From NCBI RefSeq assembly GCF_000014945.1, contig NC_008553.1, positions 124,001 to 188,000 of the forward strand: a DNA stretch of 64,000 nt, given 5' to 3'. Below the pieces are notes generated by a model. It was given only the letters and a program-made list of their open reading frames with translations. It searched no databases and was not told the origin of the DNA. Below are positions 49,252 through 55,142 of the stretch, piece by piece; the first letter of the stretch is position 1; every line of letters begins with the position of its first letter. The position numbers were made by a program, and so were the translations under genes. Source of the DNA: Methanothrix thermoacetophila PT (GTDB lineage: Archaea > Halobacteriota > Methanosarcinia > Methanotrichales > Methanotrichaceae).

Positions 49252-52200
49252 TCAGCTGAACTCCAGTCTGCACTCCTTCGTGACCTCCATCAGGTACGCC
49301 CTTCCCGGCTCCATAGGCTCGTCCATTTTCAGCGGCTTCCATTCGCCATCCTCATACTTCCACATGAACGCTGATATCAATCCCTTCTCTACAGCCTCTG
49401 AGAAGCTGTAACGCCGGTGCTCTGTGTTGACGGTGATGTTCATGGGAGCAAGCGATTCGTTCACGGGCAGCCCGATCAGGTTCCAGCCAGCTGTGAGCTT
49501 GAGCCTGTACGGCCGCTCCACAGGCTTGCCCGGGATCTTAATGGTGAAATCATCATAGCTGTCGATTATATAGCCCATTCCTGGCTCAAAGGCAGTTATG
49601 TTCGTAATAGTCGAGTCCTTCAATGAGTAGCTCCACTCATCATCGGTCACCGTGAATATCCCGCGGTACGGCTTGCCCTTGAGGTACTTCTCCACGCGCG
49701 CATCCTTGGGATTGACGTAGATTGAGACCGCGTTCCAGCCTACGGTGATGTTTATGATCTGAAGCTCCTCAGGGATGACGCGGTATTCCACCGAGAAGCT
49801 CCTCGTCTCTCCGAGTCTCGGGTTGATGACAGGCCACATCACGCGCCTGTTCTCTCCGGCTACATCCTCCGCATGCCACACGACTCTGGATCCCTCTTTA
49901 ACTACGACCTCCTCAGCATCCCTGGGAAGCAGCACCTCAGCTATGATCGCAGGAGGAGCGTTGAGGCTGACCTCCCCGTCGGTGCTGTCCACGCCGAGCC
50001 AATAGAGCCAGTCCGTGGCCTGCTCTGTGATGGGGGCGACGGAGACTGCAACAGTATCGTTGCCCGAGACCTCATCTACCCTATACGGAAGCTCCGGCGT
50101 CTCTGGGAGATATGGCCTGAACTCCGGATCGCCGAAGAGCATGAAGCTGCTCGCGGTCTGGTTCATCATCTCCTTCATGGAGTACTCCCACGGAGGCAGC
50201 ATCTCCTCTATCCTCTCGAAGGATATCTTCTCCGCGCCCTTCATCTTCATGATGTAAAGGTTCTCGGCCTGGCTCAGGGCCTCGCCTGCGGTTGCATTCT
50301 CGAATACCAGCGCCTGGTAGAAGCGCTTGTTGTAGTCCTCTGAGACGTATATCCAAACAAGCGCGGATGAGCCCACATATCCCACAGCCCCAGCCCTGAC
50401 GAACGCCAATGCTATCGAGTCGTCGAGCCTCATTGGTATGTACATCTCCGTCCCGCTCACATTGATGCTGAATCCCTTGAGTCGGGAGCTCAGACAGGAG
50501 TTGCTCGTCGTGAGCTGGGGAGCGAGGACGAACTGCTTGACCTGCGTCTCATCGAGGAACGAGTCTGTCATCGACCAGCTCGAGAGCGCCCAGCCCTTCT
50601 CTGAACCATGATGATCGAAGTGGACTATGCCCACGCCATTGTTCATGAATGCAGAGACCCTCTGGAAGGTCGCCTCCTCCCACCGCAGGTCTCTCGAGTT
50701 CAGGCCTGCGTCTGCAAGATACTCCTTTATCCTGATGGGCACAGGGCTCCATGGCCACTCCACCGGCGTGGCCACAACGAGCGATGTGTTCTTCCAATCG
50801 CCATGGAGCCTCTCGTAGCTCAGAGTCCTGGCGACCATCTGCGAGACGTCGTAAACGCTGAGCCCTATGAACCGACCGGTCGCGACCTCTGTGTAGTTGT
50901 CGTCATCCATCTCTATTCTGTAATCCCTGTAAACATCATAGGAGATGGGATCTCCCTCAAGCTCCTGCTTCACACCGGTCGTCGGGAATGGAAGTGATCC
51001 GGGGTCTCCGACCACCAGGAGGTACTCCGGTCTCAGCTTCTTCTCCCCAACACTCTCGCGGAGCCATTCCTCGACCTCACCAGGGTCCACATACTGCGGG
51101 TCCTTCGCCACGTCCATCACTATGGCGCGCTTTGCAGCTGCAACCTGCATCGATGCCAGCGACAGCTTCGGCACCTTCGTGTGGCTGAAAGCCGTAACGT
51201 TGTTAGGCGGCAGTGTCGACCTCACCTCTATGCTCATGTTCTTCGTCCGGTACTCCGTGCCACCACCGACCTCTATGTTGAATAACCATCTTCCAGGCTC
51301 AGGCATCGGAAGAACTGCGCGGTATCCGTCCGATCCTGCGCCGAACCGGACATAGCCTATCAGCCCGTGCGGGCTGAAGAGCCGGAGGGCTGTGTAGCTG
51401 TGCGGCTCAGAGACATTCCATGTGACTATTGCAGTTCCAACAGGCATCTCTCCTGGATACGTTATCTCAGAGACTGGTCCGTCGCTCTCCGTTTCCACCG
51501 TGACGTTCTCCGCCAGGCCGGTGTACCTGACCGTCATGCCCCTGTCGAGAGGCTGCACCCAGCCGGCATCCATGGGATGTAAAACCACGACCTCTAAATT
51601 CAGAGAGACCGATTCATCCGGGTCGAGCTTCTCTAGATCCCACGTGAGTATCGAGCCGTTGAAGAATGCGCCTGCCGGATCCGACGGCTCTTTGGATATC
51701 GGGTCTGTGATCGCGAGCTTTCCTTTGTAGTATATCGGCATCCTCACATACCGGCCGTTTGCGAACATGTCAACGAGGCTTACCCCCTCCAGAGGCTCTG
51801 TGCCAGTGTTTCTGAGCGTTATGTTCATCCGCACGACCTCCCCGGCCTCCTCAGAGGGTATGCTCGCGGGGATGGTCTCAACACTGATCCAGAGGTCTTT
51901 GACAAACGCTCTCTTTATCCTGCTCTCCGGCTTTGGAGGTATCAGAGAGATGTCGTGGCTGTTTGTCAGCACTATGGATCTGACAGAATCGTTTCGCGCC
52001 CTCATCTCTCCCAGGAGAAGATCCAGATCACCCCTGTGGACTGTGACGTTCATCTCCTCCAGCATCTTGACCACATCAGATGGCGCGTCCCCTGCGATGA
52101 TCGCATCTCTGCAACCTAGCCTCTCGATCTCCGAGAGCGTGGTGTTCGATATGTTGGAGGAGAAGAAGAGAACTGGCCAGTTCAGGTACGAAGCTATTGT

Positions 52201-53577
52201 CGCCGCCTGGATCCCCGCGGTGTAGTTATCCCCGACCAGAACAACGCCAGGGGAGGAACTCCACCGGCTGCTCAAAAGCACCGCCAGCTCCTCGCTGCTG
52301 TTATATCTTATCGTATCATTGCATGCCCAGGAGACATCTCCTATGCCCAATGTCCTCATTCCGAGCTCCTTTATGAGCCACTGAGCTGCCTTCGAGGGGG
52401 GCTCGAGCTCAGACCATAGAGGTGTGTAAACGACGTTATACTCGAAGACCATGCCGTCGCATTCTGATTTGATGAGACTCTCAATGTAATTCAAAGCGCC
52501 CTCGACGTTCTGCGTGGAGAGCATGTACTCAACATAATCATCGCTGAGCCTCACGTATATCGGGGTATCAGTCACCCTGGCAGCCAACTCTGCATCCTGC
52601 ACAGGCACAGAGGACACAACGACAAAATCTGATACGCTGGAGAGATCATAGAGGTTATAGCCCTTCGATTTGTCAAAGGGCTCGTCTATGGCGACGCCCA
52701 GCTCCACCGGTCCGAGGTTTCTTGTTATGTTCCGCGCCTCTCGCGCGATCTCCAGGACCTTCTGCTCCCTCCACGAGAGCCACTTCTGGTAGTTGTATCC
52801 TGATGACCTTATCCTCGTCAGGTCCAGCCCTGTATCTCTGTAGAACTCCTCCTTGCAGACGTCACAGAAGCAGTAGTCCTCTCCATCGAAGCCAAACCTG
52901 TAGAGCACTATGCCATCTACCTTGTACTCGTCTATGATCTCCTCGATCCTGGCGTAGAGATCCTCCCTGACATTTGGATTCACAGGACATAAGAGAGATC
53001 CACGATTTCCGTTTGCGTCCAGTGAGTATCCATCTATCTCTGTGTCGTTCCCTTCCTCCAGCCTCTTCCTGAGCTCGACACCTCTGAATGCATCACGAAT
53101 CATCCCTGCCAGTGTCGAATCGTTCGCATTTACCAGTGTGGTTGATGTCCATCTCTCCTCATCGCTCTCAGGCTCCAGGGATACTGTCATGTACGTCTTC
53201 ATTCCCTGCTTCTGAGCTGTTTTGACGAGGGTCTTGACGTCCTCGCCGGAGCCGTGGATTATCAGCGCGGAGACGTTGCCAGAGGTCATGGTCTGCAGGA
53301 TCGCATCCATCCCGTACCTCTCGAGATCCGTGCCCTCCACCCACCCGAGCCGCCTTCCAGCATTCACCTCCCGCGGGAGTATCAGCATCGGCCTCACTAC
53401 CGTGGTGTTCTCTTCACTCCACGTCGAGAGCGGCACGGATGCCACGACAGCATGCCAGTCCTGTTCGCCGACGAGTATCATCTCATCGGTATCTGATTTC
53501 ACCCCTCTTTCAAACACAGCGCCCGCCTGAGATATCAGGAGCAAGAGGAGAGTTGCAATAAATATAGCGCGCATCAC
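49252..53577 (-). CDS. Giant secreted protein: glycosidase-like, CWB2 and gingipain-like (C25) domains
   Basis: 1441 residues. In order: signal peptide (1-21); a TIM-barrel, glycoside-hydrolase-like region (about 30-395) with a Cys trio in GEDYCFCDVCKEEF; a CWB2-type cell-wall-binding domain (about 425-535, VVLVGDNYTAGIQAATIAS); Ig/CARDB-like domains (about 560-800); a C25 gingipain-like peptidase (about 830-1140) whose dyad would be His near 985 in HFDHHGSEKGW and Cys near 1028 in TSNSCLSS; and a C-terminal part with two related units (GWNAVSIYV, GWNLIGLPV). No membrane anchor is seen, so surface binding may be through CWB2. It overlaps the upstream secreted-protein gene (ATGA). Function is unknown. 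Confidence 0.8.
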   Translation of the reverse strand: MMRAIFIATLLLLLISQAGAVFERGVKSDTDEMILVGEQDWHAVVASVPLSTWSEENTTVVRPMLILPREVNAGRRLGWVEGTDLERYGMDAILQTMTSGNVSALIIHGSGEDVKTLVKTAQKQGMKTYMTVSLEPESDEERWTSTTLVNANDSTLAGMIRDAFRGVELRKRLEEGNDTEIDGYSLDANGNRGSLLCPVNPNVREDLYARIEEIIDEYKVDGIVLYRFGFDGEDYCFCDVCKEEFYRDTGLDLTRIRSSGYNYQKWLSWREQKVLEIAREARNITRNLGPVELGVAIDEPFDKSKGYNLYDLSSVSDFVVVSSVPVQDAELAARVTDTPIYVRLSDDYVEYMLSTQNVEGALNYIESLIKSECDGMVFEYNVVYTPLWSELEPPSKAAQWLIKELGMRTLGIGDVSWACNDTIRYNSSEELAVLLSSRWSSSPGVVLVGDNYTAGIQAATIASYLNWPVLFFSSNISNTTLSEIERLGCRDAIIAGDAPSDVVKMLEEMNVTVHRGDLDLLLGEMRARNDSVRSIVLTNSHDISLIPPKPESRIKRAFVKDLWISVETIPASIPSEEAGEVVRMNITLRNTGTEPLEGVSLVDMFANGRYVRMPIYYKGKLAITDPISKEPSDPAGAFFNGSILTWDLEKLDPDESVSLNLEVVVLHPMDAGWVQPLDRGMTVRYTGLAENVTVETESDGPVSEITYPGEMPVGTAIVTWNVSEPHSYTALRLFSPHGLIGYVRFGAGSDGYRAVLPMPEPGRWLFNIEVGGGTEYRTKNMSIEVRSTLPPNNVTAFSHTKVPKLSLASMQVAAAKRAIVMDVAKDPQYVDPGEVEEWLRESVGEKKLRPEYLLVVGDPGSLPFPTTGVKQELEGDPISYDVYRDYRIEMDDDNYTEVATGRFIGLSVYDVSQMVARTLSYERLHGDWKNTSLVVATPVEWPWSPVPIRIKEYLADAGLNSRDLRWEEATFQRVSAFMNNGVGIVHFDHHGSEKGWALSSWSMTDSFLDETQVKQFVLAPQLTTSNSCLSSRLKGFSINVSGTEMYIPMRLDDSIALAFVRAGAVGYVGSSALVWIYVSEDYNKRFYQALVFENATAGEALSQAENLYIMKMKGAEKISFERIEEMLPPWEYSMKEMMNQTASSFMLFGDPEFRPYLPETPELPYRVDEVSGNDTVAVSVAPITEQATDWLYWLGVDSTDGEVSLNAPPAIIAEVLLPRDAEEVVVKEGSRVVWHAEDVAGENRRVMWPVINPRLGETRSFSVEYRVIPEELQIINITVGWNAVSIYVNPKDARVEKYLKGKPYRGIFTVTDDEWSYSLKDSTITNITAFEPGMGYIIDSYDDFTIKIPGKPVERPYRLKLTAGWNLIGLPVNESLAPMNITVNTEHRRYSFSEAVEKGLISAFMWKYEDGEWKPLKMDEPMEPGRAYLMEVTKECRLEFS

Positions 53578-55142
53578 GACACCTCCACTGAGAGCCCCAT
53601 CACTTTGAGAGATGTCACCACTGAATCACTCACGCCGCTTGCGATGATCGCCTTCTCCAGACCCTTCGCCATCATGCTCTTTATTGATGTCGTGATCGAA
53701 TCAGTGAGCTCGTCACCACAAACGACCAGTGGCAGACCTGAACGCTTTGCGATCTGGTACGATCTGAAGACATCTATCTCGCTCGGCCCTGAGACGACAA
53801 CTGCTGTCTGGTTAGACCACATCTTGTCTGCGAGAATCCAGGAGGTCTCGGCGAGATCCGAGCCTGCGATCCTGGAGACGTTGAAGCCGGATAGCTCAGA
53901 CTCGATTTTACTGCTCACTTCTGATTCGCTGCCCAGTATGATCACATCACTGTAGGGTAGAAGCATGTCCATGATATCCTTACTCACCCTGTCCTCGACC
54001 TGGATCACAGGCACGGTCGTATTGTTTCCTGAAAGCAGAGAGGCAACGGCCATGTACCTCGGATCCGCCGAGGTGATTACCGCGAGCCCAGATGGCTCTA
54101 CGGCCTCTAGATACACTACCTCAGGCGGGAATGGCACACCATTTGTATCTACCATCCTGAAGACTATTGCATATCCAGATGGCTCGGTCGCGATAAGCGT
54201 GAAGTTCGCCGATCCGAACTTGCCGTCGATGTCCAGAACCATGCTCGATGGCACGATGAGCAGGGATGGATCCGATATCGCATCTACCATCACCCTGACA
54301 TTGTTCTCCAGGAAGAGCGTTATCCTCCCCTCGTAGCTCCTGTTCACGATCACCTGCTTCGGGATATCTATCCTGACATCATAACCCTTGACCACAACCC
54401 CGACATCGAGATTCACTGTAACACTGGCGTTCTTGGATCTGTTGCCCTGAGACTCCCCCACGATCCTCATCGACCCACTCCTCGCGTTCTCATTCACCTC
54501 AACCTTCAGGGTCAGATGATGGCTTGATCCGGATGGGAGAGCGAGCGAGTATGGCAGATCTATCTCCTCATCCCCATCGTATAGCCTCGGCTGCCAGCCC
54601 GCGGGGACCTCAGGGATGTACACCTCGATTAGATCCCTGAACCTGCCGGTGTTTCTCACCTCGAGATCGAACTCTACAGGCTCATCCGGTGTGACCTCCC
54701 CGCTCACCTCCTTTGCATCATTTATGTAAAGTCCAACGTTATAGCTGTCCTTCTCGATGACGTTGAGGTTGAAGCTTATCGCTATCGGGAGAGCAGGAGG
54801 CGCGGTCTCATCGAATATGTAGAAGAATCCTGTGTACAGCCCAGGCTTCGTCTCAGGAGGTGCCATGAAGAATATGTCCACATCCATATCATCGCCCGGA
54901 TCGATTGCCTTTTTGGGTATATCGATCATTATCATATCCTTCGCGTCTCCACCCACAGCGGTAGTTCTTATCCTCGATACCGGCTCCTCGCCTGTGTTTG
55001 TCAGGGTCAGCACCTTGTGTATGACCTCTCCAGGATGGATCTCGATATCGAAACGCTCCCTATCCGGCTCCAGCTGGGCGGAAGCGATCCCGCTCAGAAG
55101 CAGCATGATGAGTATGAGGTAAATAGGCTTCATCAAGACCAC
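53574..55142 (-). CDS. Secreted protein with NEW3/Ig-like domains and CWB2-type domain
   Basis: 522 residues with a signal peptide (about 1-22). Two or three Ig-like NEW3-type domains (to about 330) contain repeated VRNTGRFRDLIEVYIP-like patterns. The last 170 residues (about 350-522) resemble the CWB2 fold: VVVSGPSEIDVFRSYQIAKRS and IIASGVSDSVVTSL. It is transcribed just ahead of the giant protein and overlaps it by 4 bp, so the two products probably act together at the cell surface. Probably a partner or anchor; not proven. Confidence 0.75.
   Translation of the reverse strand: MVLMKPIYLILIMLLLSGIASAQLEPDRERFDIEIHPGEVIHKVLTLTNTGEEPVSRIRTTAVGGDAKDMIMIDIPKKAIDPGDDMDVDIFFMAPPETKPGLYTGFFYIFDETAPPALPIAISFNLNVIEKDSYNVGLYINDAKEVSGEVTPDEPVEFDLEVRNTGRFRDLIEVYIPEVPAGWQPRLYDGDEEIDLPYSLALPSGSSHHLTLKVEVNENARSGSMRIVGESQGNRSKNASVTVNLDVGVVVKGYDVRIDIPKQVIVNRSYEGRITLFLENNVRVMVDAISDPSLLIVPSSMVLDIDGKFGSANFTLIATEPSGYAIVFRMVDTNGVPFPPEVVYLEAVEPSGLAVITSADPRYMAVASLLSGNNTTVPVIQVEDRVSKDIMDMLLPYSDVIILGSESEVSSKIESELSGFNVSRIAGSDLAETSWILADKMWSNQTAVVVSGPSEIDVFRSYQIAKRSGLPLVVCGDELTDSITTSIKSMMAKGLEKAIIASGVSDSVVTSLKVMGLSVEVS

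Follow-up and report, generated by a model that had tools for sequence, protein, structure and literature searches.

The window, a stretch of 64,000 nucleotides from Methanothrix thermoacetophila PT, harbored two adjoining genes on the minus strand, and all features of the window located below lie on that strand. Gene 1 (49252..53577) encoded a multidomain protein of 1441 aa with a predicted peptidase C25 domain and gene 2 (53574..55142) a partner of 522 aa; both reading frames were present as a preliminary description of this DNA had reported them. Translation and hydropathy scans assigned a signal peptide to each product (approximately residues 1-20, 53518..53577, for gene 1 and residues 1-22, 55077..55142, for gene 2) and no further transmembrane-like segment to either, and both proteins are accordingly predicted to be exported. 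Their junction reads TC-GTG-ATG: counted from the GTG (at GTGA) the overlap is 4 bp, and counted from the next ATG it is 1 bp. N-glycosylation sequons were enriched in both products, with 28 against 7.8 expected in the first and eight against 2.7 in the second. No defence-system match was obtained for the locus with PADLOC.

Predicted docking modules of the two proteins

The N-terminal part of the gene 1 product (approximately residues 40-405, 52363..53460) was assigned to a GHL10-like TIM barrel on the basis of its homologues, of a model of residues 22-575 (pLDDT 79.5) and of Foldseek comparisons. The protein itself stayed below the Pfam cut-off for GHL10 (0.013, 15 of 27.9 bits), and the domain was matched in 27 of 31 homologues (at 0.01) and passed the cut-off in an ANME-1 orthologue (1.1e-13). 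The best PDB fold matches of the model were PgaB (6.9e-11) and Cwp19 (1.6e-10), the latter also being weakly matched by the gene 1 family profile among PDB sequences; GHL10-type and GH42/GH35 barrels were matched as well. The closest fold was therefore the C-terminal domain of PgaB (GH153; PMC5933820), at 10% identity. In its order of signal peptide, GHL10 barrel and CWB2, gene 1 resembles the autolysin Cwp19 of Clostridioides difficile, which carries GHL10 and three CWB2 units (PMC6016235). It differs from Cwp19 by having roughly one and a half CWB2 units, by the likely loss of the active-site acid of the barrel, by the fusion to a C25 peptidase and by residing in an archaeal host devoid of peptidoglycan.

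The lost acid concerns residue 227 (52897..52899), placed by alignment where barrel strand 4 ends. It is Arg in this species, was acidic in only three of 35 Methanotrichaceae (Arg, Lys, Asn or Ser in the other 32) and was Asp in each of the four ANME-1 homologues. In PgaB, the acid that is probably catalytic lines up with aspartates that are catalytic in related families (PMC5933820) and that by our reading sit at the place of residue 227; this PgaB residue, D474, seems to be the counterpart of the strand 4 position. Because the acid was lost in 32 of 35 Methanotrichaceae and because of this alignment with PgaB, the barrel of M. thermoacetophila is probably non-catalytic and restricted to glycan binding. 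The region described earlier as glycosidase-like thus retained its fold assignment, while hydrolysis by it became doubtful. A bifunctional glycoside hydrolase and protease, with barrel and C25 domain both active, would be compatible with the role proposed below and recalls Cwp19, whose GHL10 domain confers lytic transglycosylase activity (PMC6016235); the ANME-1 homologues, which keep Asp at 227 and pass the GHL10 cut-off, also speak for it. Given Arg at this position here and a non-acidic residue in nearly all Methanotrichaceae, we consider it distinctly unlikely. The barrel further displayed a CFCDVC cluster (C236, C238 and C241; 52855..52872), invariant together with C197 in 39 of 39 sequences. 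The CFCDVC portion of these four Cys aligns with a Cys cluster of a GH42 beta-galactosidase, which suggests a metal site.

The barrel is followed by one complete and one partial CWB2-like unit (residues 420-545, 51943..52320). Searched alone, the gene 1 protein gave no CWB2 match in Pfam; PF04122 was matched in 23 of 31 homologues (at 0.01) and exceeded the cut-off in an ANME-1 orthologue (4e-11, 43.7 bits), and among PDB sequences the family profile matched the CWB2 anchoring module of C. difficile Cwp6 at 1.2e-9. A related region formed the C-terminus of the gene 2 product (residues 345-522, 53577..54110). Its Pfam score was just below cut-off (1.3e-4, 22.8 of 24.9 bits), and by profile comparison it matched the gene 1 unit with 94% probability. 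The signal peptide, this match and the GTGA junction agree with the earlier view of gene 2 as encoding a second CWB2-type protein of secreted type that overlaps the first by 4 bp. Bacterial CWB2 proteins possess three tandem units, which bind the anionic wall polymer PSII. In contrast to Cwp6, the units found here are spread over two proteins, with fewer than three in each by our reading of the alignments, and a composite module of three binding units may arise from both proteins together. The domain had been called out of place in this archaeon, and indeed PF04122 (at 1e-5) detected nothing but gene 1 orthologues when 394 genomes of the phylum were searched.

The gene 1 spacer and tail were rich in beta structure. 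An Ig-like or DUF11-like spacer (residues 575-800, 51178..51855) matched DUF11 weakly (0.016) and was modelled with a pLDDT of about 80 over residues 690-790. The conserved C-terminal tail of gene 1 (approximately residues 1265-1441, 49255..49785), which displayed two GWN motifs, was modelled as beta with a similar pLDDT of about 80; comparable tails occurred in bacteria and in further ANME-1 proteins. In gene 2, Ig-like domains (NBR1-Ig-like and NEW3-like; 54108..55064) gave Pfam matches below cut-off (4e-4 and 4.4e-3) and constituted the portion shared with the ANME-1 partner protein. Profiles, homologues and the barrel model together supported the composition of barrel, CWB2, Ig-like and C25 regions proposed earlier, and the two-gene organization was supported too.

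The C25 peptidase domain

The peptidase C25 domain (residues 846-1154, 50116..51042) was the most clearly recognized part of the locus. It matched PF01364 at 2.9e-46 (158.9 bits, the cut-off being 23), the match starting at position 63 of 374, and gingipain R at 2.7e-6 by profile; the C25 profile was matched in all 31 homologues. The predicted catalytic His, H990 (50608..50610), falls on the HGSE motif of gingipain R in the alignment, and the predicted catalytic Cys, C1028 (50494..50496), lies downstream and is the sole Cys of the region. Both residues were invariant in 39 of 39 homologues (35 from Methanotrichaceae and four from ANME-1); within the domain, no other His was invariant across this set and no Cys besides C1028 occurred. 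The preliminary description had placed the dyad at about H985 and C1028 and had proposed its conservation in homologues as a check: C1028 was right, the His is H990 (residue 985 being Val), and the pair so corrected proved to be fully conserved. In the model of residues 690-1441, most of the C25 region had a pLDDT under 50, the underlying alignment being narrow, so that the caspase-like sheet is predicted here from sequence profiles. With its dyad intact, the domain is predicted to be an active cysteine peptidase.

Gene 1 differs from gingipain R by its partner gene and by its predicted N-terminal glycan-docking module. Asp163 gives gingipain R its specificity for Arg. This S1 residue was not kept in gene 1, where Pro is aligned to it in a pairwise alignment that is weak at that place. 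A C25 enzyme may also act in a sortase-like manner, as PorU of the type IX secretion system, cutting surface proteins and attaching them to envelope glycan. PorU models did match the C25 region, weakly (0.026 and 0.22), and the presence of a glycan-docking module in the same protein would fit a transfer to glycan; these matches were far under cut-off (12 of 420 bits), and we regard such an activity as very unlikely.

Distribution of the pair

Gene 1 and gene 2 were each found in all 37 Methanotrichaceae genomes searched and adjoined one another in those that were read. Gene order around them varied within the family, which identifies the pair itself as the conserved unit. Gene 1 was absent from all 24 other genomes of the class, three of which displayed weak, partial matches to gene 2. 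Among 394 genomes of the phylum, near-full-length versions of the N-terminal module came only from Methanotrichaceae and four ANME-1 (Methanophagales) genomes, and when genomes of 84,980 species were scanned, near-full-length relatives were again seen only in Methanotrichaceae-type genomes and in the same number of ANME-1 genomes. In ANME-1, a partner of 278-365 aa also precedes gene 1 and lacks the CWB2-like end. GHL10, CWB2 and C25 all score above their Pfam cut-offs in the gene 1 homologues there. Three of these four homologues contained an insert with two transmembrane-like segments; in one of them (L103:6492-11201, residues 619-675 of the translation) the segments lie in the Ig region and the first resembles a PGF-CTERM motif (weak, 0.12).

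C25 domains are generally more widespread, being present in 54 of the 394 genomes of the phylum, and what is restricted is therefore the combination of domains. Each of these domains was already known. A GHL10-CWB2-Ig-C25 fusion accompanied by a CWB2-like partner was not found in the literature searched, nor was its confinement to Methanotrichaceae and a few ANME-1; for gingipains in Methanothrix, that literature yielded only an unrelated match.

Most Methanotrichaceae checked possessed no other C25 gene, whereas genus g9 displayed several additional C25 matches per genome (G013, G018). C25 peptidases feature in a genomic study of MBG-D archaea (PMC6461988), and extracellular gingipains of this type, proposed for sediment archaea, could suggest that gene 1 encodes a secreted protease for scavenging nutrients. 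Gene 1 is family-wide and tied to a partner and to a predicted glycan-docking module, which sets it apart from the additional C25 genes of genus g9. Methanothrix, moreover, grows on acetate, and scavenging is therefore an extremely unlikely function.

Some other features were observed around the pair and its relatives. A small gene on the opposite strand, about 157 bp upstream of gene 2, was kept in 22 of 37 genomes (L052:5630-6118 and equivalents) and is missing from the window. In ANME-1 genus g68, the DNA immediately upstream of the pair encoded related small secreted proteins, some of which had Pro-rich linkers (L103:3542-5491 and L105:10200-12242). They gave no Pfam match over cut-off and were rejected as sheath proteins, as they were not among the matches of the sheath protein profile and had no PDB match. 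Repetitive pseudo-ORFs resembling a CRISPR array in appearance were seen at about 671-678 kb of the contig that holds the window (L170, G000:C1). In viral contigs, no relative of the gene 1 N-terminal module was found and the C25 half gave a single weak C-terminal match; the matches in a Foldseek viral library were mostly generic glycosidase-like or unnamed.

Association with sheath proteins and proposed role

According to Medvedeva et al. 2024 (PMC11576556), sheath (SH) proteins occur throughout Methanotrichales, in Methanospirillum and Methanolinea, and in part of ANME-1, genus QENH01 among them; in that survey, no other protein could be linked to the formation of sheath or plug. The probable SH genes of M. 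thermoacetophila were located near 703 kb of the genome. SH genes were present, usually in many copies, in 23 of 23 Methanotrichaceae tested and in none of 14 other genomes. Methanothrix-type SH proteins were clear in five of 51 ANME-1 genomes, all from one genus, which holds the QENH01 genome, and a single weak match occurred in one additional genome. The pair was present in four of these 51 genomes, namely three of the five bearing SH genes and one other (Fisher p 0.0019, uncorrected for relatedness and drawn from very few lineages). The two SH-bearing genomes devoid of the pair were 81-86% complete. In the remaining carrier, GoMg1, SH proteins were not detected; its gene 1 is split just past the CWB2 unit by an in-frame TAG (L102:7311-7330), which may reflect gene decay, an error in the sequence or recoding of the stop codon.

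Within Methanotrichaceae, genus g9 (the Methanothrix harundinacea group) displayed an SH-type gene approximately 2 kb upstream of the pair, on the opposite strand, in nine of nine genomes (L057:13567-14106 and its equivalents in L043, L048, L050, L053, L055, L059, L061 and L063). Together with the co-occurrence in ANME-1, this proximity is suggestive of a link between the pair and the sheath. The notion of a surface protease maturing or turning over the sheath, put forward in the preliminary description, thereby gained circumstantial support, as the pair is found in all sheathed Methanotrichaceae and elsewhere in a few ANME-1, mostly of the SH-bearing genus; that the sheath is its substrate is suggested by co-occurrence and is circumstantial too. 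Since full-length homologues were found only in Methanotrichaceae and ANME-1, Methanospirillum and Methanolinea appear to lack the pair, which thus appears dispensable for some archaeal sheaths.

The peptidase may instead serve general housekeeping or quality control of the S-layer and pseudoperiplasm without being dedicated to the sheath. This would accommodate GoMg1, the one ANME-1 carrier of four without detected SH proteins, the many traits unrelated to the sheath by which Methanotrichaceae differ from their relatives, and the presence of S-layer proteins in most sheathed archaea (PMC11576556). The absence of gene 1 from the 24 class relatives argues against a general archaeal envelope need, and the lack of other C25 genes in most Methanotrichaceae checked also counts against this explanation, which we hold to be rather unlikely.

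We give an even chance to the pair being a surface-retained cysteine peptidase unit of the sheath lineage that processes sheath or S-layer protein. The two genes, forming one tightly linked unit, would provide a proteolytic machine kept at the surface. Once exported, the gene 1 product would dock on an envelope glycan or glycoprotein; its GHL10-like barrel and its CWB2-like unit would make the contact, and the gene 2 protein, with which it may form a complex, would assist through its own CWB2-like and Ig-like domains. The C25 peptidase (H990/C1028) would then cut an envelope protein, most likely a component of the sheath or S-layer. Such cutting is envisaged while the sheath matures, when hoops are inserted or plugs formed, or when filaments split. 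The reported protease resistance of mature sheaths (PMC6242892) counts against this role.

A bolder proposal, possible though doubtful, is that the Methanothrix-type amyloid sheath has its first accessory factor in this pair. It would be a caspase-fold protease docked on glycan, in which an autolysin-like GHL10-CWB2 module is fused to a gingipain; it would open or mature the sheath and would have been shared between Methanotrichaceae and ANME-1 along with the sheath proteins. The pair offers a concrete candidate for a factor in the assembly, opening and splitting of archaeal amyloid sheaths, and in it a GHL10-CWB2 module of the bacterial autolysin type appears to be reused in archaea that lack peptidoglycan.
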